Source: Beverwykella pulmonaria | Lineage: Eukaryota; Ascomycota; Dothideomycetes; Pleosporales; Melanommataceae | Direction of reading: 5' to 3' | Length of the DNA: 64,000 nt | Assembly: GCA_001599595.1 (NCBI GenBank) | Contig: BCHH01000003.1 | Location: forward strand, 138,847-202,846 | Shown: positions 4,445 through 58,053 of the stretch, piece after piece | Layout: each line of letters starts with the position of its first letter | How positions within the stretch are numbered: the stretch's first letter is position 1 | Made by a program: the position numbers and the translations under genes | The notes under the pieces: model-generated | Database searches by the model: none | Told to the model about the DNA's origin: nothing | The model's input: the letters and a program-made list of their open reading frames with translations, nothing else

Positions 4445-6370
4445 ATGTGGACAAAACTCACAATAGCTATCACTATTTCTAGTGTCCTTCTCTCAGCCTC
4501 GGCAGCGGACAAATTTGACGTTAAAAACGCAGGTATGTAAACCATCTTCTACCAATCCTACTCTATCTAATATTCTTAGGCTCCATTAAATCATATGTCA
4601 AAAGTCTCGCCGAGTCTATTGTGAATGACTACTACAAAACCCGACCAGATTCCCCAACTGGCCTTCTCTACACCGTACCCGAAGCCCAGAACGGCTCCGC
4701 GCGACTCGATTGGGGCCAATCAGCCTCAGTATGGGATGCATTAATCACGTACTCCCATTTGACTGGAGACAATCAGTTCAACGATGTTGTTGCCGAAGCT
4801 TTATACACACAAATGGGCGAGACGAACGATTACTTGGGAAAGGGTATACCCATGGTGGTTAGTAGATGTCCTCTTCGTCCTTTGGACAAGCGTAATGGAG
4901 AGTAAATATATTCAAGAAAGCTAACCAGGGCACAGCCAAATGATGAACAATCCCAATGGGCCCTCGCCGCCCTCTCAGCCGCCGAATACGGTTTTCCCAA
5001 GCCCACCTCAGGCAAACCCCCTTTTCTCGAACTCGCCATCAATGCCTTCAGCTCGCAAATCGAGCGCTGGGATGATAAGACCTGCAAAGGCGGTCTGCGG
5101 GTCTTTGTAGATGATGACAATAAAGACAAGTCCTTCTCGAAGAACGGCTGGGCAAATTCTAACTTCTTCTTGCTTGGGGCGAGACTTACTAAACTGACGG
5201 GCAAGAAGGTGTATGCGCAATGGGCTGAGAGACAGTTTAAATGGGCTCAGGAGAGTGGGATGATTGGGAAGAATTTTGAGGTCTATGATATGATACATTC
5301 GCATTGTGATGTCGATCATAAGATGTCGACAAACCTGAACCTAGGGCATTGGCTTGAGGGCAGCGCGGTTATGTACAGCAACGTAAGTCTTAAACAATTT
5401 CTGAAATTACCCAATTCCGTCATCGTGCCCAAACAAACACTCGCAATTTCATCTTTTCTTCCACTGACATCTCACACAGGACAAGCTCAGCGATAAGAAG
5501 AAGGACTGGGAGACCCGGATCAATGGCCTTGTCGCAACCACCAAAACGAATCCCGCCCTCCAAAACATGCCTTCCAAGCCTGAAACCGCCCCCTACGAAC
5601 TGATCTCTAGCAGCGATAACTCCATCGCCAACGTGCTCCAATACGCGCGCAGTCTCTCCCACACCATCCAACTCGCCCCATTTACCTCCGACAAGCTCTC
5701 TCCTGACGTCACTGCCGCCGCAAAAGCTGCAGCTGGAGTATGCGGCCCCAAGACACTCAAATACAAGGACAAGGCTTCCAATATTAAGATGGCGTGCAGA
5801 GCGGATTGGCGCCCCGAGGGGCCCAAGAGGCTTCACAAGGAGGACGACAGCACGGTGTTGAGTACGGCAGCAGCGTTGGAGACTGTACAAGGGCTTCTGT
5901 GGTACATACCTAAGGATAAATATGGTGGGTACCAGGGCGAGAAGCCGAGTGAGACGAAGAAGGGATATGAGAACCCGAAGGAGACGAAGAAGGGATATGA
6001 GAACCCGAAGGAGACAAAGAAGCCGGAGGATCCGAAACAAACAGGCAAACCTGAGGACCCAAAGCAGACAGGCAAGCCCGAAGATCCAAAACAAACGAGC
6101 AAGTCCGAGGATCCAAAGCAAACTAGTAAACCCGAAGACCCAAAACAGACCAAGACCGGCGAAGCACCGCCGAGTCAGACGACTTCACAGGGCGAGCCTC
6201 AACCAACCGAGACTGGTTCTAAGCCTCAACCACCACCCGGTACACCTCCGAGTGCAACGACGTCGATACCGACGGAACCTTCACCGAGTGGTGAATCGGC
6301 TGCTTCTAGGACACGATTTGGATGGATTGTTGCTGTCTGCGCCGTTCTTTTCGCGGCTCTGATAGTTTAG
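4445..6370 (+). CDS. Secreted, GPI-type glycoside hydrolase family 76 (Dfg5/Dcw1-like) protein
   Basis: GH76 family protein, in fungi usually a wall-associated endo-alpha-1,6-mannanase/transglycosidase that links GPI proteins to the cell wall. Four exons: 4445-4532, 4580-4857, 4936-5382, 5480-6370, giving 567 residues in frame. Residues 1-20 form a signal peptide (MWTKLTIAITISSVLLSASA). Family blocks are visible: the tryptophan-containing WGQSASVWDALITYSHLTGD, then NDEQSQWALAALSAAEYGFP, RWDDKTCKGGLR and NSNFFLLGARLTKLTG. The C-terminal part is low complexity, with two copies of a GYENPKETKK unit and about five copies of a nine-residue KPEDPKQTG unit, a Ser/Thr/Pro stretch, and a hydrophobic tail (GWIVAVCAVLFAALIV) fitting a GPI signal. 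Oddity: the usual catalytic Asp-Asp pair (NDDQ) reads Asp-Glu here (residues 125-126), so activity may be altered. Confidence 0.87.
5935..6150 (+). repeat. In-frame tandem repeats in the GH76 gene
   Basis: Two 30-bp units encoding GYENPKETKK precede about five 27-bp units encoding variants of KPEDPKQTG. They lie inside the last exon and encode the Lys/Pro/Glu-rich stalk before the GPI signal. Copy number is likely to vary between strains. Confidence 0.85.
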
Positions 6371-23410: not shown

Positions 23411-24832
23411 ATGACAAAGGGACGCGTCTGCTTGGCCTACTCCGGTGCGTAACTGGTGTTACAGTCACCATCCTAGGACCGTAGCATTCATTGACTGACA
23501 GATTTACAGGCGGCCTCGACACATCTACCATCTTGCTATGGCTCATCGAGCAGGGATATGAGGTCGTATGCTTCCTCGCCAATGTTGGTCAGGAGGAGCC
23601 CTGGGATGAGGTCGAGAAGAAGGCGCTCAAGATTGGCGCGATCAAGATGGTGATTGTGGATTTGCAGAGGGAGTTCGTTGAGGGGTTGTGCTTCCGCGCT
23701 GTTCAGTGCAATGCCACCTACGAAGGCCGCTACCTCCTCGGGACCAGTCTCGCTCGCCCGGTTATTGCCCGCGCCCAGATCCGCGTTGCTCAGCAAGAGA
23801 ACTGCCAATTCGTCTCCCACGGCTGCACAGGCAAGGGAAACGACCAGGTCCGCTTCGAGCTGGCATTCTACACACTCCAGCCTTCAATTAAGGTGATTGC
23901 GCCATGGCGCCTTCCCGAGTTCTGCGATCGCTTCAAGGGACGTCAAGATCTTCTGGACTATGCCGCTCAGCACAACATCCCAGTCACCAGCACAAAGGCT
24001 AAGCCCTGGAGCATGGACGCCAACTTGGCTCATTGGTAGGCTGTCTCATCGACACAAAATTCTGGACCATAAATTGTACTAACACAGAAATTAGCTCGTA
24101 CGAAGCCGGAATTCTTGAGGACCCCGACCAATCTCCCCCAGACGACATGTGGACCATGACCGACAGCCCCCTCAATGCACCAAACGAACCAACCGATATC
24201 ACCATTCACTTCGATAAGGGTATCCCGGTCAAGGTGGTCACCCCCGACAAGACATACACCGACTCTGTCGAGCTTTTCGTCGCTCTGAACAAGCTTGGAT
24301 ATACCCATGGTATCGGTCGTATTGATATCGTCGAGAACAGATTCATCGGCCTCAAGAGCCGCGGATGCTATGACTCCCCAGCCATGACTATCCTTCGTCT
24401 CGCTCATCTCGACATTGAGGGTCTCGTCATGGATGCCCAGGTCCGCAGTATTCGCGATCAGTTCGTTAGTCACCATTGGAGCTACCAGCTCTACAATGGC
24501 ATGTACTTCTCTCCCGAGCGTGAGTTCGTCGAGAACAGCTTGCTCTTCTCTCAGAAGCGCGTTAACGGCGAGGTTCGCTTGAAGCTGTACAAGGGCAATG
24601 CGTACGTTCTGGGCCGGTCTAGCAAGACGGAGAAACTATACTCAGAAGAGGAAGCCTCCATGGATACCCTGGACAACTTCAGTCCCATGGACACGACTGG
24701 ATTCATTGCCATCCAGAGCATCAGGTAAGACTCATGAATTCGTTCATAGAGGTGTTGCGCTAACAGAATGACAGACTGAAGAAGTATGGTCTCCAGAAGG
24801 CCGAAGAGGGGGAGAACATGAGCCGTGCTTAG
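23411..24832 (+). CDS. arg1: Argininosuccinate synthase
   Basis: Cytosolic enzyme joining citrulline and aspartate with ATP to form argininosuccinate in arginine biosynthesis. Four exons: 23411-23444, 23510-24035, 24095-24724 and 24775-24832; 1248 nt, 415 residues. The first intron splits the ATP pyrophosphatase P-loop, rejoined as AYSGGLDTS. Other family blocks: [52 protein letters not shown] and [19 protein letters not shown], with a normal C-terminus ending in MSRA. Length and motifs match fungal Arg1, and nothing suggests loss of function. Confidence 0.96.
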
Positions 24833-29177: not shown

Positions 29178-29296
29178 ATGGTTACAGTAACGATAGGAAC
29201 CCATTCTATCCGGCCTGAGCTGAAACCGTTTCGGGGAACTCCATACAACGAATAGAACTTTCATATCCGCCCATGCCTCAGCCATTCTCTTTTGCA

Positions 29297-32200
29297 TTAC
29301 TGGAATACGTTAATGGCATTCTTACAGACACCTAAACAGTTAAGGACATGGAATCTACTTACAGCCTGCGCCACACAGCAGTCAGCAGCTTCCCCAATAA
29401 GCATGTCAAGTAAGGACATAGAGACTACTTACACACTACACCACGGCCAGCAGTTAGCGGTCTGCATCATTATTCTGTTAAGCTAGGGCATGGAAACCAC
29501 TTACTTTCTGCACCGCGACTAGGAGTTAGCGACTTTCCTCATCAGTCTATCAAGCTAGGGTATGTAAACCACTTACGAGCTGCACCGCGACAAGCAGTTA
29601 GCGACTTGCCTCATCAATCTATCAAGTTAGGGCATAGAAACTACTTACAAGCTGCACCGCGGCCAGCGGTTAGCGACTTGCCTCATTATTTTTTCAAGCT
29701 AGGGTATAGAAACCACTCACAGGCTGTACACGGTCAACAGTTAGCGGCGTGCCTCATTAATCTATCAAGCTAGGGCATGGAAACCACTTACAGCCTGCAC
29801 CGCAACCAGCGGTTAGCGACTTGTCTCATCAGTCCGTCAAGCTAGGGTATGGAAACCACTTACAACCTGCACCGCGACCAGCAGTTAGCAACTTGACTTA
29901 TTAGTTTGTCAAGCTAGGGTATAGAAACCACTTACAAGCTGCACCGCGACCAGCAGTTAGCGACTTGCCTTATTAGTCTGTTCAGCAAGGATACAGGATC
30001 TACATACAGCCTGCACCAGGACTAGCAATTAGCAACTTGCCTTATTAGTCTGTCAAGCCAGGGCATTAGAACCACTTACACACTACATCACGACTAGCAG
30101 TTAGCGACTTGTCTTATTAGTCTATCAAGCTAGTACATGGAATCCACTAACAAACTGCACCGCGACTAGCAGTTAGCAACTTGCTTTATTAGTTCATCAA
30201 ATTAGGGCATAAAATCACTTACTTTCTATACCCCAACCAGCAGTTAGTAGTTTGCCTGATGATTTTGTCAAGCCAGGGCAGGGAAACCACTTACGGGCTG
30301 CGCCACGACTAGCAGTTAGCAACTTCCCTTATTAGTTTGTTAAGCTAGGGTATAGAAACTACTTACAAACTACAACGCGACCAGCAATTAGCAACTTGCC
30401 TTATTAGTTCACCAAGCTAGGACATTAGATCAACTTACAGCCTGTACCAGGACCAGCAGTTAGCAACTTGCCTCATTAGTTTACTAAGCCAGGACATAGG
30501 ATCTACTTACAGCCTGTACCAGGACCAGCAATTAGCAACTTGCCTTTTTAGTTCACCAAGCCAGGACATTAGATTTACTTACAGCCTACACCACGGCCAG
30601 TATTTAGCAGCTTGCCTTATTAGTCTGTTAAGTCAGGGCATAGAAACCACTTACAGTCTGCACAAGGACTATTAGTTAGCAACTTGCCTTATTAATCTAT
30701 TAAGCCACGCTATAGGATCCACTTACAGTCTGCACCATAAACAGCAGTTAGTAGATTGCATAATTAGCTTGTTAAAAAAGAATACAGGATCCACTTACAG
30801 TCTGTACCACAACTAGTAATTAGCAACTTCTCTTATTAGTCCGTCAAGTTAAGGCATAAAAAGCACTTACAATCTGTACCACAAATAGAAGTAAGTAACA
30901 TGCCTTATCAGCCTGTTAAGCTAGGGCATAGGGTCTACTTACAGGCTACACCAGGACTAGTAGTTAGCAACTTGCTACATCAATTTGTGTTAAGGCATAA
31001 ATAGCACTTACAATCTGTACAGCAAACGGAAGTTAGCGACTTGCCTCATGCGTCTGTCAAGCTAGGGTATAGGATCCACTTACAGGCTACACCAGGACTA
31101 GTAGTTAGCGGCTCGCCTTATTAGTCCGTCAAACCAGGCCATGGAAACCACTTACAAACTGCACCACGGCTAGCAGTTAGCAACTTGCTTTATTAATCTA
31201 TTAAGCCACGCTATGGGATCCACGTACCGGCTGCACCATAAACAGCAGTTAGCAGCTTGCCTAAACAGCTTTTTGAGCAAAAATATAGGATCTACTTACA
31301 GGCTGCACCATTAACAAAAATTAGGAATTTGTCTTATTAGTCTGTTAAGCTAGGGCCTAAAAACCACTTACAGTCTGCACCACGGCCAGCAGTTAGCAGC
31401 TTTTCTCATTATTCTGTTAAGCCAGGGCATGGAAACCACATACAGTCTGCACCACAAACAGAAGTTAGCAACTTGCCTTATTAGTTTGTTAAGCTAGAAC
31501 ATGAGATCTACTTACAATCTGCACCACGACCAGCAGTTAGAAACTTGCATCATTTAATCTATCAAGCTAGGGCCTAGAAACCACTTACACTCTGCACCGC
31601 GGCCTGTAGTTAGCGACTTGTCTTATTCTGTCAAGCCAGGGCGTGGAAACTACTTACACCCTGCACCGCGACCAGTATTTAGCGACTTGCCTCATTAGTC
31701 TGTCAAGCTAGGCATGGAAACTACTTACAGCCTGCACCGCGACCAATAGTTAGTGACTTGCCCTATCATTCTGTTAAGCCGGGCATGAAAACCACTTACC
31801 GTCTGCACCGGACTAGCAGTTAGCGACTTGCCTTATTAGTTCGTCTAGTTAGGGTATAGAAACCACGTACAAGCTGCAACGCAACCAACAGTTAGCACCT
31901 TGCCTTATTAGTCTGTTAATTTCAGGCACAGCAACTACTTACAAGCTGCATCACGGCAAGCAGTTAGCAACTTGCCTTATTATTCCGTCAAGCCAGGGCA
32001 TGGAAGCCACTTACGGACTGAACCGCGACCAAGAGTTAGCAACTTGTTTTATTAGTCCGTCAAGCTAGGGCATGAAAAACACTTACAAGCTGCACCGCGA
32101 CCAGCAGTTAGCGACTTGCCTTATCAGTCCCTTAAGTTAGGGCATAAAAACCACTTACAATCTGCACCACGGCCAGCAGTTAGCGACTTGCCTTATTAGT

Positions 32201-35200
32201 CCCTCAAGCTATGGCATAGAAACCACTTACAATCTGCACCACGGTTAGTGGTTAGCAACTTGTCTTATTATTCTGTCAAACCAGAGAGGGCATAGGAACC
32301 ACTTACTTTCTGCACCGCGACCAACAGTTAGCAACTTGCCTCATCGACTAAGTACATCAAGCTAGGCTATAAACCACTTACAATCTGCACCAGAGCTGGC
32401 AGTTAGCGACTTGCCTTATCAGTCCGTCAAGCTAGGGCATAGAAACCACTTACAAGCTGCACCACGGCGAAGAGTTAGCGGCTTGTCTCATTACTCTGTC
32501 AAGCCAGGGTATGGAAACTACTTACAGACTACATCGCGATTAGCAGTTAGAGACTTGCTTTATTAGTCTGTCAAGCCAGAGCATGGAAACCACTTACAGC
32601 CTGCACCGCGATCAGCAGTTAGCAACTTGCCTTATCATTCCGTCAAGCCAGGACATGGAAAACACTTACAATCTGCACCGCGACCAGCAGTTAGCGACAG
32701 GCCTCATCAGCCCGTTAAATTAGGACATAGAAGCCACTTACAAGCTGCGCTACGGTTAGTGGATTACCTAATCATTCTGTTAAGCTAGGGCGTAGAAACC
32801 ACTTACAGTCTGCACCACGGCGAGCAGTTAGCGACTTGCCTCATCATTCTATCAAGCCAGAGCATGGAAATCACTTACAGTCTGCACCGCGACCAGCCGT
32901 TAGCGACTTGCCTTATTGAATAAGTCCATTAAGCTAGGCCATGGAAACCACTTACAAGCTGCACCATAGCAAATAGTTAGCGACTTGCCTTATCAATTTA
33001 TCTAGCCACGCCATGGGATCTACTTACAGTCTGCATCATAAACAGCAGTTAGCGGCTTGCCTGATCAGCTTGTTAAGCAAGAATATAGGATCTACTCACA
33101 GCCTACATTACAAACAAAAATTAGGAATATGCCTTATTAGTATATTAAGCTAGGGCACAAAAATCACTTACGAACTGTACCACAGCATGTAGTTAGCGAC
33201 TTGCCTTATTAGTTAACTAAGCTAGGACAAGGATCTACTTACAGGCTGCACCACGAACAGAAGTTAGTAATTTGCCTTATGGGTCTGTCAAGCCAGAAGA
33301 TAGGATCTACTTACAATCTGCATCACAACTAGCAATTAGCAACTTGCCTTATTAGTCTTTTAGGCTAGGGCATGGAAACCACTTACAGTCTGTACCACGG
33401 CCAGCAGTTAGCGGCTTGCCTTATTATTCTGTCAAGCCAGGGCATGGAAACCACTTACGCTCTGCACCGCGACTAGCAGTTAGTGACTTGCCTTATTTTT
33501 TTGTTAAGCCAAGGCATGGAAACCACTTACAGACTGTACCGCGACCAGCAGTTAGCAACTTGCCTTATTAGTCCGTCACGCCAGGGTATAACATCCACTT
33601 ACAGTCTGCATCACGATTAGCAGTTAGCGACTTGCCTTATTATTCTGTCAAGCTAGGGCATGGAAACACTTACAAGCTGCACCGCGACCAGCAGTTAGCG
33701 ACTTGCCTCATCAGTCCATCAAGCTAGGGCATGGAAATCACTTACAAGCTGCACCGCGACTAGTAGTTAGAGACTTTGCCTCATAATTCTATTAAGCTAG
33801 AGCATGGAAAACACTTACACCCTGCATCGCGACCAGTAGTTAGCAACTTGCCTTAGTATTCTGTCAAGCTAGGGCATGGAAACCACTTACAATCTGCACC
33901 ACAACAAACAGTTAGCCACTTGCTCTATTTTTCTGTCAAGCCAGGGCATATAAACTACTTACCAGCTGCACCGTGACCCGCAGTTAGCGACTTGCCTTAT
34001 TAGTTCGTCAAGCTAGGGCATAGAAACCACTTACAGTCTGCACCACGGCCAGCAGTTAGTGACTTGTCTTATTATTCTATCAAGCCAGAGCATGGAAACC
34101 ACTTACAGTCTGCACCGCGACCAGCAGTTAGTGACTTGCCTCATCGACTGAATTCATCAAGCTAGGCCATGGCAACCACTTACAATCTGCACCGCGACCG
34201 GTAGTTAGCGACTTGCCTTATCATTCTATCAAGCTAGGGTATGGAAACTACTTACAATCTACACCACAGCCAGCAGTTAGCAACTTGCCTCATTATTCTA
34301 TCAAGCTAGAGCATGGAAACCACTTACACCCTGCATCGCGACCAGCAGTTAGCGACTTGCCTTATTAGTTTGTCAAGCCAGAGCATGGAAACCACTTACA
34401 CTCTGCACCGCGACCAGCAGTTAGCGACTTGCCTCATCAGTCTGTCAAGCCAGGGCATAGAAACAACTTACAAGCTACCCCACGACCAGCAGTTAGCGAC
34501 TTGCCTTATTGTTCTGTCAAGCTATGGCATAGGAACTACTTACAAGCTGCACCGTGACTAGCAGTTAGAGACTTTCTTTATCATTCTACTAAACTAGAGC
34601 ATGGAAACAACTTACACCCTGCATCGCGACCAGCAGTTAGCAACTTGCCTTATTATTCTGTCAAGCTAGGGCTGGAAACTACTTACAATCTGCACCACAA
34701 CAAGCAGTTAGCAACTTGCTCTATTAGTCTATCAAGCCAGGGTATATAAACCACTTACAAGCTGCACCGTGACCCGCAGTTAGTGACTTGCCTCACTAGT
34801 CTGTCAAGCAAGGGCATGGAAACCACTTACAGTCTGCACCACGATCAGCAGTTAGCAACTTGCCTTATCAGTCCGTTAAGCCAGAGCATGGAAACAACTT
34901 ACAATCTACACCGCAACTAGCAGTTAGCAACTTGCCTTATCAGTCCGTCAAGCCAGGGCATATAAATCACTTACAAGCTGCACCGTGACCCGCAGTTAGC
35001 GACTTGCTTCATTAGTCCGTTAAGCTAAGGCATAGAAACCACTTACAGTCTGCACGATGGCCAGCAGTTAGCGACTTGTCTCATCATTCTGTCAAGCCAG
35101 AGCATGGAAACTACTTACAGTCTGCACCGCGACCAGCAGTTAGTGACTTGCCTCATCGACTGAGTTCATCAAGCTAGGGAATGGAAACTACTTACAGTCT

Positions 35201-35870
35201 GCACCGCGACCAGTAGTTAGCGACTGGCCTTATTGACTAAGTCCATCAAGCTAGGCCATGGAAACCACTTACAAGCTGCACCATAGCATGCAGTTAGCGA
35301 CTTGCCTTATCAATCTATCTTAATCACACCATGGGATCCACTTACAGTCTGCACCATGAACAGCAGTTAGCGGCTTGTCTAATTAGCTTGTTAAGCAAGA
35401 ATATAGGATCCACTTACAGGCTGCGTCACGAACAAAAATTAGCAATTTGCCTTATTAGTTTCTCAAGCTAGGGCACGAAAATCACTTACAAGCTGCACCA
35501 CGGCACGTAGTTAGCGACTTGCTTTATTAGTCCGACGAGCTAGTGTACAACAATCACTTACAAGCTGTACCACGGCGAGAAGTTAGCGACTTGCCTTATC
35601 AGCTGTTAAGCCAAAATATGGGCTTCACTTACAGTCTGCACCGCAACTAGTAGTTAGCAACTTATCTACTTATCATATTAAGAAAGTGGAATTCATTTAC
35701 TAACCTGCACCAGAAACAGTTATTATATTTACAATATATAGAGAGAAAGGTGTTTCTAAGCTTACCTGTCGAGCCCCAAGCTCTTTAGCCATGGCTTCCC
35801 CTAGTTCAAGAGAACCAGGGAGTGCGAGAGCAGAGGCTATAAGCATGGTAGTAAGTACTAAGAACCTCAT
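29297..35870 (-). CDS. Micro-exon gene A: secretory leader plus about 88 one-codon exons
   Basis: Exon 1 is 35870-35766 and encodes 35 residues beginning MRFLVLTTMLIASALA, a signal peptide, ending ...GARQ exactly at a GTAAGC donor. Intron 1 is 61 nt (35765-35705). Its CAG acceptor abuts a GTTAGT donor, giving a zero-length exon. About 88 units of roughly 72 bp follow, each a full intron (GTAAGT donor, GCTAAC branch, about 18 nt, then CAG/TAG) plus exactly three exonic bases. I read Thr (ACT), Leu (CTT), Ile (ATT), Ala, Pro and Gly codons most often and no stops. The last acceptor (TTCCAG) is followed directly by TAA (29299-29297). Full splicing gives about 123 residues. A TATA box lies about 105 bp upstream. 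Seen: splice signals, phase and leader. Inferred: that they are used. No known family. Confidence 0.6.
29300..35704 (-). repeat. Tandem array of about 89 intron units (72 bp), locus A
   Basis: Average period is about 72 bp, a 69-nt intron plus 3 nt. The middle of each unit diverges strongly between copies while donor, branch site and acceptor stay intact. Variant donors seen are GTGAGT, GTATGT, GTTAGT and GTACGT, all functional types. The sense of the introns is the minus strand. Confidence 0.9.
35766..35870 (-). other. Leader exon of micro-exon gene A
   Basis: 105 nt, 35 codons: short basic N-terminus (MRF), hydrophobic core (LVLTTMLIASALALPG), then an acidic/polar segment ending AKELGARQ. 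It is homologous codon by codon to the leader of gene B (MKF..., ...AKELQARQ), with mostly conservative changes. The exon closes at a complete codon, so all following introns are phase 0. Confidence 0.8.
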
Positions 35871-36269: not shown

Positions 36270-36560
36270 GCTCTGCATGTGTGACGGCAACCATCGTTCC
36301 CGCCACTCACTCTCGTTGCGTGAGTGCCCCTGCACCTTGACCCCGGTTCCTGCGCCTTGACCATGCTCCTGCGCCTTGACCATGCTCCTGCGCCTTGACC
36401 ACATCCCCAAGTATATTGCTAAGGCAGCCCGTCCTTTCTTTGTTCTCTAGCTTTCATCTTCGACAAACACGATAGTTATACGTAGTCTATCAATCTAGAG
36501 AATCTGATGCCTGTTCATCTCGCGTTCCCTTATGATGCTGCGTCTTCGTGATAGCATGGC
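36270..36560. mobile_element. Insertion in the left arm, LTR-like, with a short tandem repeat
   Basis: This stretch is absent from the corresponding place in the right arm. It begins near TGTGTGACGG, a common fungal LTR start. It contains four head-to-tail copies of a unit of about 20 bp based on CTGCGCCTTGACCATGCTC at about 36327-36402. Ends are approximate. Confidence 0.45.
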
Positions 36561-37270: not shown

Positions 37271-39504
37271 TACTAGGTGTTTTGGATTCCTATTGTGTGA
37301 CTCTGCAGCAGGAGGGTGTCACAGTAACCACCGTGACACCTGTCAACGGTCCCGAACGACGGTCCGAATGACAGAACCCCCCCGACCGACGGTCGTGACA
37401 AGTACTGTACTCTACGACACAGTACTCTCCGAATGACGAGCTCGGCAACTAGCCGACCTAACCTGAAATGCTCAACCAAGCCCCAACTGGGCTCGACCCG
37501 CGCACGAACCAGACCCCTGATGCACGAACCATGCTGAATATTTATTTGAACGAGAAGGACTTCTGGTCGAGCTCCTTACGCAACGTCTTGTATGATAATT
37601 CATCGCACCTGAGATTGTATCTGTAGCTTCCTGATATTTAATTGAATCTTTATCCTCTGCCACCGATAGCCTCGTATGACAGTTGTGGAGGGTGAGAGGG
37701 ATGAATACAAAGTAAATGTCGAAGCAGGGAATGGGTAATGTGATAGTGTAAGCTGGGGCGTGGAGGAAAACGGTGTCAAGATGTGTATTGTGTGTGATAT
37801 ATTTACAGCTGATATATATATATGACGGACTGATTAGTCAGTGGCATATCCACGTGACATATGGTGTCCTCGGCTTACAGATAGACAATAAATTTCTGAC
37901 GAGCGTGAGGCTTCACTGTGAGCGGCGTCAATGCCAGAACAAAGTATGCAGCAGATACAATTCAAGATTGACTATGAAGACTATCTAGGAGATTCGTGAA
38001 GTTTATATATTCGACTGGATCTGTGGATCTGTGATCACAGATCAAACAGATCCACGATTCGTTGATGGTACTGTGGCTCACTGTATCATGCCGGCTTGAT
38101 CCGCTGGTTGATGGTACTGTGACTTACAGTATCATGCTGGTTTTGATTCGCTGGTTGATGGCGAGGCATCATCCCCATGTCGCAGCCGGTCTCATAACCT
38201 CGTGTTGGAGTGCTCGTCGCGCTACTGTAGTGAACAGTTCGACTGGTCACCAATAGTTCCTGGGTTGCGTTTTGTAACAATTTGGTAGTCTTCCTAGGTT
38301 ATGTTTATAACACTTTTAATTAAATTGTGTCTTAAACTTAATTGTTTGCTTATGTCACGGCGACTAGGCATTCAGGTATGAACACTAGATATCAGTATCA
38401 GATTCAGGGATTGATTGCTACGTGCTACTGTCGTGATGGTTCCAGACGTCAGATGCAGAGAAAGGAAAGTTTCTCTGCCAGGTTATATACAGAATGTGCT
38501 GGGCTCGTGCGCGGCCAAGGTGTTACGTAACGTGTCAGGGAAGCGACATTGTCAGGGGAACCACGATAGTTACCGTGACAGCTTAACAAAGTTGTGCGGC
38601 TAGTGCTTGCTAACCTAGCTAGCAGTGTGTTTAGCAAGTAGTTTGTTAGCTATATCTTGCAGATTGCTTAGAGTTATTTTAAGGCCCCTGGTACTAGGTC
38701 GAACTTTATGGGGTTAGACTAGGCCAGATTGGGACAGGTGGGGTCACTAGGTGGTGCACCACGCTAGTCCTACCCTGTCTAGGCTATAGTCAGGTGTTAT
38801 CACATGACTGGGCATATATATTCCCGGATCGCTACGGGCTGTGCTCGGTAGCGATTCGTTTGAGTATTCTTTAGGAATGCGAACTCTTCTCCGTGCTATC
38901 CTCTGTTACCATCGCCTAGTGACCCTGTAAGGGTTCTGATCCACCGGATCAACGGCACGACTATATGCGCTAAACCACTGAGCCCAAAGGCATGCACAAG
39001 TTGAATCAGCACGATTCAGCTTGCGTAGTCGGTATTTATGCATGTAACAAACACACTTGCGCCATTGCACCACTCAAGCCCACACGTGGGCACATGCATG
39101 GGATCTATCCCATCACAGGTGGGTTGTCTTACACTAAATAGGGTTGAGAGTAAGGGTTCGGGATGGATAGGAGTATATTATAGGAGGGGACGAATTGCTG
39201 CCAAGCCACATTGGCAGCGGGGGAACACTAATAGGCTAAATCACATGACATCTCGGCCATACTGCCTCCGTACAGGCCTGGTACCAGCCTTACAACATGT
39301 ATAGGCCAAAACCGGCCTTACAGTATCCCTTCACGATCCGAACGTCCCATAAGGAAAACAAAGACAACACCGTCTAGTTCCATTCCTTTATAACGTACCG
39401 GCACTCCAACCAATCCACCACTACTCTTTATTTTTACTTTTATGACCTTGCATGCTCTCTAACAATAATCCTAACTGTTGTAGGGTCCTTTTTAGGAAGG
39501 ATTT
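37271..39504. other. Accessory spacer with retroelement debris
   Basis: No intact gene. It contains one solo LTR (37747-37879), a direct duplication of about 58 bp at about 38.05-38.16 kb (TTGATGGTACTGTG...), and LTR-like sequence with a TATATATTCC box at about 38.7-38.95 kb. Short open frames show no domain. Confidence 0.4.
37747..37879 (-). mobile_element. Solo LTR, copy 2
   Basis: 133-bp copy in inverted orientation relative to copy 1, from TGTAAGCTGG to CGGCTTACA, flanked by a perfect 5-bp duplication, GATAG. Confidence 0.75.
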
Positions 39505-45132: not shown

Positions 45133-45140
45133 TATATAAA
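45133..45140 (+). promoter_or_regulatory. TATA box of micro-exon gene B
   Basis: TATATAAA followed by GCACGACAAG, 114 bp before ATG 45254 and matching the gene A promoter. Confidence 0.65.
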
Positions 45141-45253: not shown

Positions 45254-45358
45254 ATGAAGTTCTTAATCCTTACTACCATGCTTATGGCATCTGTCCTTGC
45301 ATTCCCTAGTGCTCTTGAACAGGGAGAAACCCAGGCTAAAGAGCTTCAGGCTCGACAG
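45254..45358 (+). other. Leader exon of micro-exon gene B
   Basis: 35 codons, phase-0 end, with a classical signal peptide (basic start, LILTTMLMASVLA core, likely cleavage near AFPSA). Paralogous to the gene A leader. It is the only long exon of the gene. Confidence 0.8.
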
Positions 45359-48300
45359 GTAAGTTTAGAAACAATATTCTCTCTATATATTATAGAAATA
45401 TTAATTTTTTCTGGTGCAGGTAAGCAAATCTATTCCACTTACTTAATAGAATAAGCAGATAAGTTGCTAACTGCTGGTTGCGGTGCAGCTTGTAAGTGGT
45501 TTCCATGCCCTGGCTTGACGGACTAATGAGGCAAGTTACTAACTACTGGTCGCGGTGCAGGGTGTAAGTGGCTTCCATGCCCTGGCTTAACATAATGATA
45601 AGGCAAGTCGCTAACTGCTAGTCGCGATGCAGCTTGTAAGTGATTTCTACGCCCTGGCTTGACGGAATAATGAGGCAAGTCACTAACTGCTGGCCGTGGT
45701 GCAGCCTGTAAGTGGTTTCCATGCCCTGACTTGACGGACTAATGAGACAAGTTACTAACTGCTAATCGCGGTGCAGACTGTAAGTGGTTTCCCTGCCCTG
45801 GCTTAACTAACTAATGAGGCAAGTTGCTAACTGCCAGCCATGGTCCAGAATGTAAGTGGTTTCTATGTCCTGGCTTGACGGACTGATGAGGCAAGTCGCT
45901 AACTGCTAGTCGCGATGCAGCTTGTAAGTGGTTTCCATGCCCTGGCTTGACAGAATAATGAGGCAAGCCGCTAACTGCCGGTTGTGGTGCAGCTTGTAAG
46001 TAGATCCTATGTTCTGACTTGATGGACTGATAAATCAGGTCGCTAATTGCTAGTCGTGATGTAGTGCGTAAGTAGATTCTATGTCCTTCACTAGCTTATT
46101 AGGCAAGTTGCTAACTCCTGGCCGTGGTGCAGCCTGTAAGTGGTTTCCATGTCCTTACTTGACGGATTGATGAGGCAAGTCGCTGATTGCTGGTTGCGGT
46201 GCAGTTCGTAAGTAGCTTCCATGTAATTACTTGACAGAGTGATGAGGCAAGTCGCTAACTGCTTGTTGCGGTGCAGTTCGTAAGTGGTTTCCATACCCTG
46301 GCTTGACGGACTGATGAGGCAAGTCACTAACTACTGGTCGTGGTGCAGCCTGTAAGTGGTTTCCATGCCCTGGCTTGACGGACTAATGAAGCAAGTTACT
46401 AACTGCTGGTCGCGGTGCAGGGTGTAAGTGGTTTCCATGCCCTGGTTTGACATAATGATAAGGCAAGTCGCTAACTGCTAGTCGCGATGCAGCTTGTAAG
46501 TGGTTTCTACGCCCTGGCTTGACAGAATGATGAGGCAAATCACTAACTGCTGGCCGTGGTGCAGCCTGTAAGTGGTTTCCATACCCTGGCTTGACAGACT
46601 AATAAGGCAAGTTGCTAACTGCTGGTCGCGGTGCAGGGTGTAAGTGGTTTCCATGCTCTGGCTTGACGGACTAACAAGGCAAGTTGCTAACTGCTAGTTG
46701 TGATGTAGTGTGTAAGTGGTTTCCATGTTCTAGCTTGACGGGCTGATAAGGCAAGTCGCTAACTGCTAGTCGCGGTGCAGCCTGTAAGTGGTTTCTATGC
46801 CCTGGCTTGACAGAATAACAAGGCAAGTTACTAACTGCTGATTGCGGTGCAGACTGTAAGTTGTTTCCATGCCCTGGCTTGACAGATTGATGAGACAAGT
46901 CGCTGACTGCTGGTCGCGGTGCAGCCTGTAAGTGATTTCTATGCCCTGGCTTCACAGAATAATAAGGCAAGTTGCTAACTACTAGTCGCGGTGCAGACTG
47001 TAAGTAGTTTCCATGCCCTAGCTTGACAGATTGATGGGGCAAGTCGCTAACTGCTAGTCGCGGTGCAGCCTGTAAGTGGTTTCTATGCCCTGGCTTCACA
47101 GAATAATCAGGCAAGTTGCTAACTGCTGGTCGCGGTGCAGACTGTAAGTGATTTATATGCCCTGGCTTGACAGATTGATTAGGCAAGTTGCTAACTGCTA
47201 GTTGCTGCGCAGCTTGTAAGTGATTTCTATGCCCTAGTTTGACAGGATAATAAGGCAAGTTGCTAACTGCTAGTCTTTGTGCAGACTGTAAGTGGTTTCC
47301 ATGCCCTAGTTTGATAGAATAATGGGGCGAGCTGCTAACCGCTGGTCTTGGTGCAGACTGTAAGTAGTTTCTATGCCCTATTTTAACAGAATAATAGGGC
47401 AAGCCGCTAACTGATAGCTGTGGTGCAGCTTGTAAGTAGTTTCCATTCCATGGTTTGACAGATTGACAAGGCAAGTCGCTAACTGCTAGTTGCGGTGCAG
47501 CTTGTAAGTGGTTTCTATGCCCTAGCTTGACGGATTCATGAGGCAAATTGCTAACTACTGGTCGCGGTGCAGAATGTAAGTGGTTTCCGTACCCTGGGTT
47601 GACAGAATAAGGCAAGCAACTAACTGCTGGCTGTGGTGCAGACTGTAAGTGGTTTCCATGCCCTAGCTTGACAGATTAGTAAGTCAAATCGCTAACTGCC
47701 GGTCGCGGTGCAGCTTGTAAGTAGATTATACGCCCTAGTTTGACGAATAATAAGGCAAGTCGCTAATTGCTAGTCGCGGTGCAGTCTGTAAGTAGTTTCC
47801 ATGCCCTGGCTTGACAGAATAATGAGGCAAGTTACTAACTGCTAGTCGCGGTGCAGGCTGTAAGTAGTTTCCACGCCCTAGCTTAACAGAATAATGAGGC
47901 AAGTTGCTAACTACTAGTTGCGGTGCAGCTTGTAAGTAGTTTCCATGCCCTAGCTCGACAGAGCGATGAAGCAAGTTGCTAACTGCTAGTCGCGGTGCAG
48001 TTAGTAAGTTATTTATTTGCCCTGTCTTGACAGAGTAATAAGGCAAGTCGCTAACTGCTGGTCGCGGTGCAGACTGTAAGTAGTTTCTATGCCCTAGTTT
48101 GACGGACTAATAAGGCAAGTCGCTAATTACTGCTCGCGGTGCAGACTGTAAGTGATTTCCACGCCCTTAACTTAAGACAATGATAAGGCAAGTCGCTAAC
48201 CGCTGGTCGCGATGCAGATTGTAAGTGGTTTCTATGCTCTGGCTTGACGGAATAATAAGGCAAGTCGCTAACTGCTAGTCGCGGTGAAGCTTGTAAGTGG

Positions 48301-51214
48301 TTTCTATGCCCTGGCTTAACAGACTAATAAGGCAAGTTGCTAACTGCTTATGGTGGTGCAGGGTGTAAGTGGTTTCTATGCCCTTGCTTAATAAAATAAT
48401 AAGGCAAGCCGCTAACTGCTGGTTGTTGTGCAGTCTGTAAGTAGTTTCTATGCCCTAGATTGACAGACTTATAAGGGAAATTGCTAATTGCTGGTCTTGG
48501 TCCAGACTGTAAGCAGTTTCTATGCCCTGCCTTGATAGAATAATAAGACAGGCTGCTAACTGCTAGTCGTGGTGCAGGCTGTAAGTAATTTCCATACCCT
48601 GGCTTGACAGAATAATAAGGCAAGCCGCTAACTACTAGTTGTGATGCAGCTGGTAAGTGGTTTCTATACCCTGGCTTGATAGAATAATGAGGCAAGTTGC
48701 TAACTGCTGGCCGTGGTGCAGCCTGTAAGTGGTTTCCATTCCCTGGCTTGACAGAATAATAAAGCAAGTTGCTAACTACTAGTCGCGGTGCAGCCTGTAA
48801 GTAGATCCTTTGCCTTAGACAGATTGATAAGGCAAGTCGCTAATGTCTAACACTGTTGCAGGGTGTAAGTAGTTTCTATGCCCTAACTTGACGGAGTGAT
48901 AAGGCAAGTCGCTAACTGCTGATCGTGGTGTAGCTTGTAAGTGGTTTCTATGCCCTAATTTGACGGACTAATAAGGCAAGTTGCTAACTGCTGGTTGTGG
49001 TGTAGGCTGTAAGTGGTTTCCATGCCCTGGCTTAACAGATTAATGAGACAAGTTGCTAACTGCTGGTCGCGGTGCAGGCTGTAAGTGGATCCCACGGCTT
49101 GGCTTAAGAGACTGATAAGGCAATTTGCTAACTGCTGGCCGTGATGCAGCTTGTAAGTTGTTTCCATACCCTAGCTTGAAAAACTAATAAGGCAAGTTGC
49201 TAACTGCTGGTTACGGTGTAGCTTGTACGTAGTTTCTAGGCCCTAGCTTGACAGACTAATAAGGCAAGTTGCTAACTACTGGTCCTGGGGTAGCCTGTAA
49301 GTGGATCCTATACTCTAGTTTGACAAACTAATAAGGCAAGTTGCTAACTTATGTTCGTGGTGCAGATTGTAAGTAGTTTCCATGCCCTAGTTTGACAGAC
49401 TAAGGAGGCAAGTTGCTAACTGCTAGTCCTGGTGCAGGCTGTAAGTAGACTCTATGCCCTAACTTAACAGGCTAATAAGGCAAGTTGCTAACTTCTATTT
49501 GTGGCGTAGGCCGTAAGTAGTTTCTATACCTTAACTTGACGAACTGATAAGACAAGTTTCTGACTGCTAGTCGTGGTGCAGCCTGTAAGTAGATCATATA
49601 CCCTGGTATAACAGACTAATAAAGCAAATTGCTAACTGCTTGCTGCGGTGCAGGCCGTAAGTGATTTCCATGCCCTAGCTCGATAGAGTGATGAGGCAAG
49701 TTGCTAACTGCTGGTCGCGGTGCAGATAGTAAGTGGTTTCCATGCCCTGGCTTGACGGACTAATAAGACAAGTCACTAAATGCTGGTCGCGGTGCAGTCT
49801 GTAAGTGATTTCTATGCCCTGGTTTAACACACTGATAAAGAAAGCTGCTAACTACTGGTTGTGGTATAGAAAGTAAGTGTTCCTAATACCTTTGCTTAAC
49901 GAGCTGATGAGGTGAGTGGCTAACTTGCCGTGGTGCAGGCTGTAAGTAGATCCCATATCCTGGCTTGGTGAACTAATAAGGCAAATTGCTAACTGCTGGC
50001 CGTGGTGCAGACTGTAAGTGGATCTCAAGTCTTGGCTTGGTAAACTAATAAGGCAAGTCGCTAACTGTTGGCTGTGGTGTAGTATGTAAGTAGATCCCAC
50101 GTTCTGGCTTGACAGACCAATGAGGCAAGTCGCTAACTTCTGGCCGTGGTGCAGCCTGTAAGTAGATCCTATGCCTTGGATAGATTGAAAAAGCAGGTCG
50201 CTAGCGTCTAATACTAGTGCAGGCTGTAAGTTGTCTTTATGCCCTAACTTGGCGAGTTAATGAGCAAGTTGCTAACTGATGGTTGCGGTGAAGTTTGTAA
50301 GTGGATCCCATGTTCTAGCTTGACAGACTAATAAGGCAAGTCGCTAACGGCTGGTTGTGATGTAGTGTGTAAGTAGATTATATGTCCTTTACTAGCTTAT
50401 TAGGCAAGTTGCTGACTGCTTGCTGTGGTGAAGGCTGTAAGTGGTTTCTATGTCCTGACTTGACGGACTGATAAGACAAGTTGTTAATTGCTGGTCGTGG
50501 TGCAGGCTGTAAGTCGCTCTTATACCCTTACTTGAGGGACCAATATGGCAAGTCGCTAACTACTAATTGCGGTGCAGATTGTAAGTGGTTTCTATGCCTG
50601 GGCTTGATGGATTAATATGGCAAGTTGCTAACTGCTAGTCACGGTGCAGGCTGTAAGTGGTTTCCATGCCCTAGCTTGACAGAATAATGAGGCAAGCTGC
50701 TAACTACTGGTTGTGATATAGAAAGTAAGTGTTCCTAATACCTTTGCTTAACGAGCCGATGATGTGAGTGGCTAACTGCTGGTCGCGGTGCAGATTGTAA
50801 GTGGTTTCCATGCCCTGGTTTGATGGACTGATGAGGCTGTCGCTAACGGCTGGTCGCGGTGTAGCTTGTAAGTGTTTTTATGCCCTAGCTTAATGGACTA
50901 ATAAGGCAAGTTGCTAACAGCTGGTCGTGGTGCAGACTGTAAGTGGCTTCCATGCCCTGCCTTGACGGAATAATAAGGCAAGCTGCTAACTGCTAGCCGT
51001 GGTGTAGTGTGTAAGTATACTCTATGTTCTTGCTTGACATGTTTATTAGTGAAGCCACTAACTGCTGTGTGTGGTTCAGGGTGTAAGTCAATCATGATTT
51101 GTTGAACAAGCTTATAAGGGATGCTGACTGTGGTTTGTTGTGCAGGCTGTAAGTAAATTCCACGTTCTTAAAGGTTTAGGTTTCTGTAAGAATGCCATTA
51201 ACGTATTGCAGTGA
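45254..51214 (+). CDS. Micro-exon gene B: secretory leader plus about 80 one-codon exons
   Basis: Exon 1, 45254-45358, encodes 35 residues starting MKFLILTTMLMASVLA, a signal peptide, and ending ...LQARQ at a GTAAGT donor. Intron 1 is 61 nt (45359-45419). Its acceptor TGGTGCAG directly abuts GTAAGC at 45420, a zero-length exon. Then about 80 units of roughly 72 bp each give intron plus three exonic bases, between CAG/TAG/AAG and GTAAGT. My reading is rich in Leu (CTT), Pro (CCT), Thr (ACT) and Ala (GCT), with a TPTPT run, and there are no stop codons. The last acceptor (ATTAACG...TTGCAG) is followed at once by TGA, 51212-51214. Fully spliced product is about 115 residues, a leader plus a small hydrophobic, Thr/Pro-rich peptide ending Lys-Ile-Leu-Thr-Cys-Gly-Ala. 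Partial skipping stays in frame. Function unknown; splicing is inferred. Confidence 0.6.
45420..51211 (+). repeat. Tandem array of about 81 intron units (72 bp), locus B
   Basis: Introns run from GTAAGT through a GCTAAC branch site to GTGCAG, most 69 nt. Some are shorter: 65 nt ending near 48860, and 66 nt near 47581-47641 and 49875-49937. Exons between them are always 3 nt. About a dozen acceptors are TAG and three are AAG; donors GTAAGC and GTACGT occur once or twice. Confidence 0.9.
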
Positions 51215-51328
51215 TTCAAAAGAGGATGGCTAAGGCAAAGATGGATATGAAAGTTCTATTCGTTGTATGGAGTTCCCCGAAATGGTTTCAGCTCAGGCCG
51301 GATAGAACGGGTTCCTATCATTACTGTC

Positions 51329-56922: not shown

Positions 56923-58053
56923 CTACCTCTTCAATCCCGTAATCCATTCCCCAGCCCTCTTCGCTTGCGCCTTCGCCGCCCCATTAAATCCCAAAATATT
57001 CCCCAAAAGCAGCACATCATGCGGTACATCCTTCTCCACATCTAGTGTCACGTCATTTCCCACGCTCTTCATTTCCTCCGCCCACTTCTTCCCATCGTAG
57101 AACAAGATCTCCGCACTACCTGCATTCACAAACAATGGGACTGGGGTCTTGAACGGTTTGCCGACCGATGAAATATACGAACTAGAAAGGACGGAAGGGC
57201 CGGTAGGCCCGGCATAGGCTAGAGAACCCCATTTTGTAAATGCGAAGGGGAGATAATCGGTACTGTAGTTCGGATTCGTGCGCACAAAGTCCCCGGTGAG
57301 ACTGGAGGCCGGATCGATCCAGGGACTCCAAAGAAGAGCGGCTGAGGGAGCGGGGATATCCAGATCCGCGCCGTACTCGGCAATGTATCTCAGAACCGCG
57401 ATTGCTGCATTTCCCCCCGCAGAGTCGCCCCCGATGATAATATTCTTAGGCGAGATCTTGAGTGTGCGGACGAGATACAAGTACGCGGTCAGACTGTCCT
57501 GTATCGCAGCGGGGAACGGGTTCGATGTCTTGGATGCCGGGAGCGTTGCGAGACGGTACTGCGGCGCAAAAACGTGTGTCGCGGGCGTGCCTTTGAGCAG
57601 GTTCGAAGCCAGATACCCCGTAGCTTCCGTCCGTCCATCTCCAATCACGAAGGCGCCGCCATGGACATGCAACACTACTGTCACATCCCCCAACTCGCTC
57701 GACGTATTGAGCGGCGCGGGATACCACGTCCCGCCGATATCCACCGGCTTCACATGCTCGCTCAGCAGCGGCCCTTTATAGAACTCCGAAGACGCGGGTT
57801 TGATGACCACGAAGCGCTCTTTTTCCTTACCGGGGGTTAGTGGCAGAGGTGTCACGGTCTCGATTGTTGCGAGATGATGGACCGCCGAGAAGAAGATGCG
57901 GACGCCGAGGGCTTGTCGGAAGCTGTATGAGGGGTGTTGGCGGAAGGATGGCAGCAGGTACTTTGTGAGCCAGAGGGGGAGGCGGAGAGCTTCAAAGGCC
58001 ACGGCGACGAGCGCATAGATGGCTTTGAAAGGATGGGAGGTGAAGAGGCCCAT
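56923..58053 (-). CDS. Alpha/beta-hydrolase-3 (hormone-sensitive lipase type) esterase
   Basis: Single exon, 376 residues. An N-terminal hydrophobic stretch (IYALVAVAFEALRLPLWL) may anchor it to membranes. The oxyanion motif HVHGGAFVIGDGR is at about residues 130-142, and the nucleophile elbow IIIGGDSAGGNAAIAVL gives catalytic Ser. SAEILFYDG supplies the likely Asp and VPHDVLLL the catalytic His, all in family order. HSL-type enzymes hydrolyse short acyl or steroid esters; the substrate here is unknown. Start ATG 58053 (MGLFTSHPFKAIYAL) is the first in frame and fits the family. Confidence 0.88.
   Translation of the reverse strand: MGLFTSHPFKAIYALVAVAFEALRLPLWLTKYLLPSFRQHPSYSFRQALGVRIFFSAVHHLATIETVTPLPLTPGKEKERFVVIKPASSEFYKGPLLSEHVKPVDIGGTWYPAPLNTSSELGDVTVVLHVHGGAFVIGDGRTEATGYLASNLLKGTPATHVFAPQYRLATLPASKTSNPFPAAIQDSLTAYLYLVRTLKISPKNIIIGGDSAGGNAAIAVLRYIAEYGADLDIPAPSAALLWSPWIDPASSLTGDFVRTNPNYSTDYLPFAFTKWGSLAYAGPTGPSVLSSSYISSVGKPFKTPVPLFVNAGSAEILFYDGKKWAEEMKSVGNDVTLDVEKDVPHDVLLLGNILGFNGAAKAQAKRAGEWITGLKR

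Follow-up and report, generated by a model that had tools for sequence, protein, structure and literature searches.

A fungal gene family predicted to be assembled from long runs of single-codon exons

The 64,000-nucleotide (nt) stretch of the Beverwykella pulmonaria genome analysed here (the window; contig C3, GenBank BCHH01000003.1, positions 138847-202846) contains two long arrays of small introns, nearly all of them separated by just three bases, which we term gene A and gene B. Together with five further genes found elsewhere in the same genome, these very probably form a family of seven, in which a leader exon is followed by 22 to 88 units of one codon plus one intron and then by a stop exon, and from which the introns would be spliced one by one to yield messages for small peptides. 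A preliminary description of the window had read the array of gene B as about 80 consecutive phase-0 single-codon exons. This is the best supported of the readings we have weighed, given the recurrence of the arrangement in seven arrays, a shared leader and 3' motif and a conserved codon order, from which we infer the splicing itself. If spliced as drawn, the RNA would be cut up to about ninety times for one short protein, an exon-size extreme on the scale of a whole gene and far beyond the isolated microexons of one to a few bases. The preliminary description knew of no gene class with tens of consecutive 3-nt exons, and we likewise found none in the open-licence full texts of PubMed Central (PMC), a body of literature that leaves many subscription papers uncovered.

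The array of gene B (45254-51214, plus strand; positions are those of the window unless a contig is named) is real: it was seen by direct reading, by unit-by-unit splitting and by Tandem Repeats Finder, which returned a tandem repeat of period 72 and 77.5 copies at 45461-51016. The locus was resolved with a parser that scores donor, branch site and acceptor against thresholds while leaving exon length free between 0 and 9 nt. This yielded 82 introns with 81 internal exons between them, of which 80 measure 3 nt and one 0 nt, arranged as follows:

45133..45140, plus strand: TATA-like box TATATAAA, 121 nt 5' of the gene B start codon
45254..45358, plus strand: exon 1 of gene B, 105 nt, frame 0, coding MKFLILTTMLMASVLAFPSALEQGETQAKELQARQ; its 3' end reads ..CAG and is followed by GTAAGT
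45359..45419, plus strand: intron 1, 61 nt, differing from the repeat type
45420..45488, plus strand: intron 2, abutting intron 1 (CAG then GTAAGC) with a zero-length exon between them
45489..51148, plus strand: 80 single-codon exons with repeat introns (mostly 69 nt), coding LGLPTNLLCPFFPGLPGCPTPTPTLTTLLNTLSALLTTILGSTALPPGLAALLPIAAPAISKATYPAFCAAIAKILTCGA
51149..51211, plus strand: last intron, 63 nt
51212..51214, plus strand: stop codon TGA, which opens the last exon
51283..51311, plus strand: conserved 3' motif TGGTTTCAGCTCAGGCCGGATAGAACGGG, presumably in the 3' untranslated region

The first single codon occupies 45489-45491 and the last 51146-51148, and the spliced product would comprise 115 amino acids, the leader being followed by 80 residues, one per exon. 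All 82 introns run from GT to AG, with GTAAGT as the donor in 79 and with CAG (66), TAG (13) or other triplets (3) as the acceptor. Exon 1 looks signal-peptide-like when judged by eye, and shares 69% identity with exon 1 of genes A and E. The preliminary description is thereby borne out with respect to a 105-nt leader exon ending on a codon boundary at a donor, a stop directly 3' of the final acceptor and a spliced size of about 115 residues. Its count of about 80 one-codon phase-0 exons also stands, with the correction that a zero-length exon occupies the first junction. The unit of one small intron plus three bases was recovered, but the uniform GTAAGT and GTGCAG signals ascribed to it were not, as donors and acceptors vary across the arrays. 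The remark that none of the codons is a stop is correct but uninformative for gene B taken by itself, where 70 of the 80 codons end in T and 0.12 stops are expected. In control runs of the parser at this locus, the longest chain was 21 introns on the antisense strand, 2 in the reversed sequence and 3-4 in five shuffles. Over the seven loci, chains of 23-90 introns were obtained in sense, compared with 4-23 antisense, 2-15 reversed and 2-6 shuffled; such chains are not produced by the parser itself.

The sister gene A (35870-29297, minus strand) stands head to head with gene B, with approximately 9.4 kb between them:

35766..35870, minus strand: exon 1 of gene A, coding MRFLVLTTMLIASALALPGSLELGEAMAKELGARQ
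29297..35765, minus strand: array of 90 introns, 88 single-codon exons and one zero-length exon
29299-29297, minus strand: stop codon TAA, at the place homologous to the TGA of gene B
29200..29228, minus strand: conserved 3' motif of gene A

The spliced product of gene A would be 123 amino acids long. The upstream flanks of the two genes are alike, with 431 aligned bases at 76% beside the start codon and 123 at 85% farther out, and this similarity suggests that the pair is an inverted duplication. Two short tandem repeats were noted between the genes, at 36325-36401 (19 bp x 4, about 455 bp upstream of the gene A start codon) and at 38061-38161 (46 bp x 2.2).

The one genome examined (45.6 Mb, 31 contigs) was searched with the splice pattern, the leader peptide and the unit DNA, which led to five genes beyond A and B:

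C1:2435-2442k, minus strand: gene C, 83 codons
C2:2667-2671k, plus strand: gene D, 37 codons and one 9-nt exon
C15:33-39k, minus strand: gene E, 44 codons 3' and 13 codons 5' of an N stretch
C5:2395-2398k, plus strand: gene F, 22 codons
C15:445-449k, plus strand: gene G, 55 codons

Genes C and D could be parsed in full only with GCAAGT donors permitted; the first intron of gene C is of the GC-AG type (GCAAGT), and gene D also carries one GCAAGT donor. Across the seven arrays, 380 of the 419 donors read GTAAGT, while the acceptors are divided between CAG (290), TAG (122) and AAG (7). With lengths of 0-9 nt allowed, 409 of the 412 internal exons are 3 nt long, two are 0 nt and one is 9 nt. The 5' part of gene E, parsed separately, adds 13 exons of 3 nt and one of 0 nt, and every inner exon is in phase 0. 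The zero-length exon lies between introns 1 and 2 (AG then GT) in genes A, B and E. In the 69-nt consensus of every array, a CTAAC branch site lies about 47 nt from the start of the intron.

Leader exons measure 99-183 nt, a multiple of three in all seven, and terminate in RQ in five genes, in RD in gene D and in RQVL in gene G. An in-frame stop is present in the exon after the last acceptor in every case (TAA, TGA, TAA, TAA, TAA, TAA and CCA TAG), and opens that exon except in gene G, where one codon (CCA) precedes it. The 29-nt 3' motif was found at seven places in the genome with three mismatches or fewer, one per array gene, and its reversed control at none. A pattern of two donors plus a 3-nt exon gave 382 matches in the genome, of which 351 fall in the seven arrays (the N part of gene E uncounted), and the remaining 31 are close in number to the 28 matches of the reversed control. 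A TATATAA-type box is located 109-121 nt 5' of the ATG in six of the seven genes; none matching the pattern was found 5' of gene D.

An eighth, decayed copy was identified on a further contig (C18:134500-144000, minus strand, near 141625), in which a stop inside a leader-like stretch is followed by about three eroded units and then by unrelated sequence. This relic shows what the decay or loss of such a gene looks like, and the seven arrays look different. No intronless paralogues of genes B and D were found in the genome; the matches in this search comprised array leader exons, the C18 relic and one weak match on contig C8 (E 0.62).

Comparison of units within and between arrays points to selection acting on the splice signals as well as on codon identity and order. 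Approximately 347 units of genes A, B, C, E and G (D and F were left out) were aligned to the repeated consensus, using no splice rules and treating the exon columns as neutral. In these units GT at the start and AG at the end of the intron never vary; the other intron columns average 0.72-0.83 bits. None of the 321 gapped bases falls in the three exon columns, where 13 would be expected under an even distribution, although deletions were cheaper there in the alignment scoring. The nine donor and acceptor columns contain 2 of these gaps versus 40 expected if even, and 173 of the 321 lie in gene G. When the 72 columns are ranked by variability, codon positions 1 and 2 come first and second in A and E, first and third in B, first and fourth in D, second and third in F, and first and twelfth in G. 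Array C, which consists largely of Gly codons (GGT/GGC/GGA), varies most at position 3 within the codon (ranks 26, 18 and 5). No stop occurs among the 409 codons of the seven arrays, where about 6.0 are expected from the position-wise composition, mostly from D, F, C and G. Retention of a single intron would bring an in-frame stop in 407 of the 419 cases and a frameshift in 10 more, with neither in 2.

The order of the codons is likewise conserved between certain genes. Over 43 aligned codons, genes B and E (the part of E after the N stretch) show 63% amino-acid identity versus 11% for non-aligned pairs. The corresponding upstream introns are 79.6% identical at the same places versus 75.8% in a sample of non-aligned introns, and in only 6 of the 43 cases does an intron match its aligned counterpart best. 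The codon-order score reaches a z of 12.8 for B-E, 6.8 for A-E and 5.9 for A-B, and was attained by none of 2000 residue shuffles for each pair; B-E and A-E differ by the gain or loss of one to three whole codons. The introns thus appear to have nearly lost their positional identity, whether by divergence or by homogenisation within the arrays. That codons have kept identity and order while the introns have nearly lost theirs is difficult to account for if the three-base stretches are not spliced together and translated as part of a message.

The predicted products fall into several kinds. Those of A, B and E are hydrophobic and have a C-terminal part in common (P.FCA..A....C), in which the cysteine positions are conserved. 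The product of gene C is Gly-rich, with EGG and GGR repeats, that of gene D contains six cysteines with knottin-like spacing, that of gene F is a 22-residue six-cysteine peptide (DCIGDQCYGRCPLDQYGNCCGC), and that of gene G combines five cysteines with a Gly/Ile/Thr-rich part. A sequence search of the PDB returned nothing for D, and for F the sole matches were iron-sulphur proteins with E values of 4.5 or higher. The products have the look of secreted peptides, those of F and D being examples, and the seven genes probably code for small secreted peptides, with a probable role outside the cell, for example as antimicrobial or host-directed peptides.

A number of observations weigh against a family of single-codon-exon genes. 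Equal exon length in tandem units is partly inherited, such that the 409 exons are not independent, and it is for this reason that signs of selection were sought. The freedom from stops is trivial in A, B and E, because the third base there is mostly T. A small residual positional signal does persist in the introns, reached by 0 of 41 circular shifts for B-E and by 2 of 35 for A-E. Residue-order similarity was not found in the pairs D-F, C-B and G-B, the mature parts of which appear unrelated or diverged beyond recognition, and as D, C, F and G gave no alignable partner, the order argument rests on A, B and E. The contrast between parser and control is weakest for gene F, with 23 introns in sense, 13 antisense and 15 reversed. 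In gene D, besides the GC donor, one unit (locus base ~2240-2265) has CAA at the expected CAG acceptor, so that an AG six bases upstream is used and an in-frame 9-nt exon results; this unit could be a mark of early decay. The knottin-like spacing of the D product is met by 1964 of 200000 permutations, which makes it modestly unlikely for a pattern that was written after seeing the sequence. Six products (the partial E left out) gave no Pfam match above the cut-off; below it, matches were seen only for D (UPF0506, Conotoxin, Dickkopf_N and EGF_STAB1-2, E 0.021 to 0.21) and are not taken as evidence. No homologue of D was found in the protein collection, where no candidate shared three 5-residue words, a search of low sensitivity, and none of the A/B/E alignment at E <= 1 among 2154 candidates (C, F and G were not queried). 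Lastly, we know of no fungal precedent for the efficient in-order removal of up to 90 introns.

Each array might alternatively be one long intron or intronic minisatellite, removed from first donor to last acceptor to leave the leader peptide only, with the inner signals as passengers of duplication. The first and last introns are indeed unlike the repeat introns, and exon 1 joins the stop exon in frame. The 3-nt stretches should in that case drift as the remainder of the intron does; instead, A, B and E have kept both their identity and their order, whereas the introns retain little of theirs. Neither the invariant GT and AG of the aligned units nor the lack of stops in 409 codons fits such passengers, and every gene would make a bare leader of 33-61 residues. 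We therefore consider a single long intron quite improbable. Even less credence attaches to the arrays being satellite repeats, decayed or without function, that descend from an introner-like element. Sequence-similar introns are described as multiplying in fungi in the form of such elements (PMC4457414), and the C18 relic, with its few eroded units, does exist. However, all 91 intron-consensus matches lie inside the seven arrays (40 of the 61 first-look candidates were scored) and there is thus no sign of a dispersed element, while the arrays carry the signals of selection described above and do not resemble the relic. Translation from the opposite strand, which the preliminary description had itself named as incompatible with its reading, was also looked at. 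It would entail a tandem-repeat protein of 24-residue repeats with variable residues, the splice-like motifs being coincidental. The period of 72 is a multiple of 3, and array B is open in antisense for 334 codons, a stretch that holds the following frame:

46671-47615, minus strand: antisense open reading frame (ORF), 314 amino acids, 24-residue repeats; a by-product of the 72-nt period, broken elsewhere in array B

The antisense frames nevertheless contain 23 to 138 stops per array (of gene E, only the part after the N stretch), and 80 of the 405 inner introns have lengths not divisible by 3, which would shift any antisense frame. An antisense protein also leaves the conservation of GT, CTAAC and AG unexplained, and we regard it as the least plausible of the explanations. 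The long-intron, antisense and satellite or introner readings were accordingly rejected after the codon-order, unit-alignment, frame and consensus tests.

Rather than excluding the single-codon-exon reading, a further possibility is a variant of it, namely that every single-codon exon is optional and that skipping of any subset yields a mixture of peptides. With nearly every internal exon a single phase-0 codon, and with little difference between units in their donors and acceptors, a donor could be joined to whichever acceptor lies further on; human UBC is described as splicing stochastically over a tandem array of AGGT sites (PMC10809524). The conserved codon order and C-terminal cysteines of A, B and E suggest instead that one full-length product matters, and we consider fully optional exons unlikely, if a good deal less so than the explanations rejected above.

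For the single-codon-exon genes, we propose that the introns leave singly, most likely in the 5' to 3' direction, by intron definition. Recognition across the intron is usual for short fungal introns. After each step, the GTAAGT donor of the next unit would end an already long upstream exon of about 100 nt or more. Because the upstream exon would always be long in this order, a 3-nt exon would never be recognised alone and the steric problem would be gone. The spliceosome would in effect be a ratchet, each click of which retains one codon, and AG-NNN-GTAAGT would resemble a recursive splice site except that three bases, not zero, are left behind. Tandem duplication of the codon-plus-intron unit is the most likely origin of the arrays. 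Tandem genomic duplication has been proposed as one way in which introns are gained (PMC4974935), and another that has been discussed involves dual-specific sites within tandem repeats (PMC10809524). Array C appears to retain a trace of unit duplication, in that the identity of codons (0.36) and that of introns (0.78) are each highest between units three apart.

Units can be gained, lost or exchanged without any shift of the frame, since all of them are in phase 0, and the peptide then changes by whole residues. It is possible, though we put it forward only tentatively, that this constitutes a new architecture in which the codon is the exon, the splicing ratchet being combined with codon cassettes such that unequal exchange between near-identical introns adds, drops or swaps single residues. 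If so, one family could, with leader and 3' end held constant, explore secreted peptides of wholly different kinds (hydrophobic, Gly-rich and cysteine-rich), and skipping of 3-nt exons might add further variety. Provided that the RNA is spliced as drawn, the genes would offer a natural system in which single residues are the modules of recombination, a test of how the spliceosome handles exons too short to be defined alone, and a case in which ordered splicing works over 80-90 steps. Standard annotation would be expected to miss such genes, and similar families may therefore be hidden in other genomes.

The nearest systems in function and outline are the schistosome micro-exon genes (MEGs) and the aphid bicycle genes, both of which have small exons and secreted or effector-like, fast-evolving products. 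As described, MEGs carry the signal peptide mostly in the 5' exon, consist centrally of numerous microexons that are for the most part symmetrical, encode secreted products and are missed by gene finders (PMC4671649). The seven fungal genes have a comparable layout, with the signal peptide (by eye) mostly or wholly in a longer 5' exon of 99-183 nt and central symmetrical exons far below the 36 bp given for MEGs, 409 of 412 being 3 nt. They differ in that MEG microexons are characterised as under 36 bp, whereas those of the fungal arrays are nearly all one codon and their introns are copies of one unit (PMC4671649). The general product searches (Pfam and the protein collection) gave no match above threshold, and there is no evidence of homology to MEGs, with which no direct comparison was made. 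Bicycle genes, candidate effector genes that evolve rapidly, also have many very small inner exons, and one aphid gene in which the microexons number more than 100 encodes about 2000 amino acids; bicycle inner exons are almost all in phase 2, in contrast to the phase-0, 3-nt exons found here (PMC9168663). Neither MEGs nor bicycle genes have one-codon exons or mutually copied introns in the accounts cited.

Further partial parallels concern the splice sites and the introns themselves. Human UBC shares tandem sites usable as both acceptor and donor, and expansion of AGGT repeats can create introns; the UBC repeat is coding, whereas the fungal repeat is almost all intron and its junctions leave 3 nt rather than 0 (PMC10809524). 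Zero-nucleotide recursive splice sites (PMC13149111) have an AG-GT form that in the arrays is confined to the place where introns 1 and 2 meet in A, B and E; 3 nt (409) or 9 nt (1) remain at the other 410 internal junctions. In the case of the stwintrons of Ascomycota, sequence-similar introns multiply and are removed stepwise, but these are reported as nested and at scattered positions, while the array introns lie side by side in one gene family (PMC5639578, PMC8469720, PMC12403724). The arrays do not have the [D1,2] stwintron arrangement, as the units are consecutive and every parsed intron comes with a donor and an acceptor of its own. Fungal introner-like elements are also families of near-identical introns; according to the source they sit in unrelated genes, unlike the array introns, which were matched in the arrays only (PMC4457414). 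With regard to exon size, two 3-nt exons are mentioned in duplicated lipS genes in a fungal stwintron paper (PMC5639578), functional microexons of filamentous fungi were called undescribed before one Trichoderma case (PMC11121469), and plants are known to have 1-nt exons (PMC8831610).

Elsewhere in the window, an esterase gene was identified at 56923-58053, for which the closest named match, among the best 120 of 704, is from Melanomma pulvis-pyrius at 75% identity; most of the further matches in this list come from other Pleosporales, so that the fungus most likely belongs to that order. A search for 5.8S rRNA gave no match. Two overlapping ORFs at 23491-24728 (plus strand) together presumably resemble argininosuccinate synthase, and probably represent either a single gene interrupted by an intron or an extra copy in decay. 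At 5567-6370 (plus strand), an ORF of 267 amino acids with tandem EDPKQT-type repeats and a hydrophobic C-terminal end is perhaps, by eye, a cell-wall protein.

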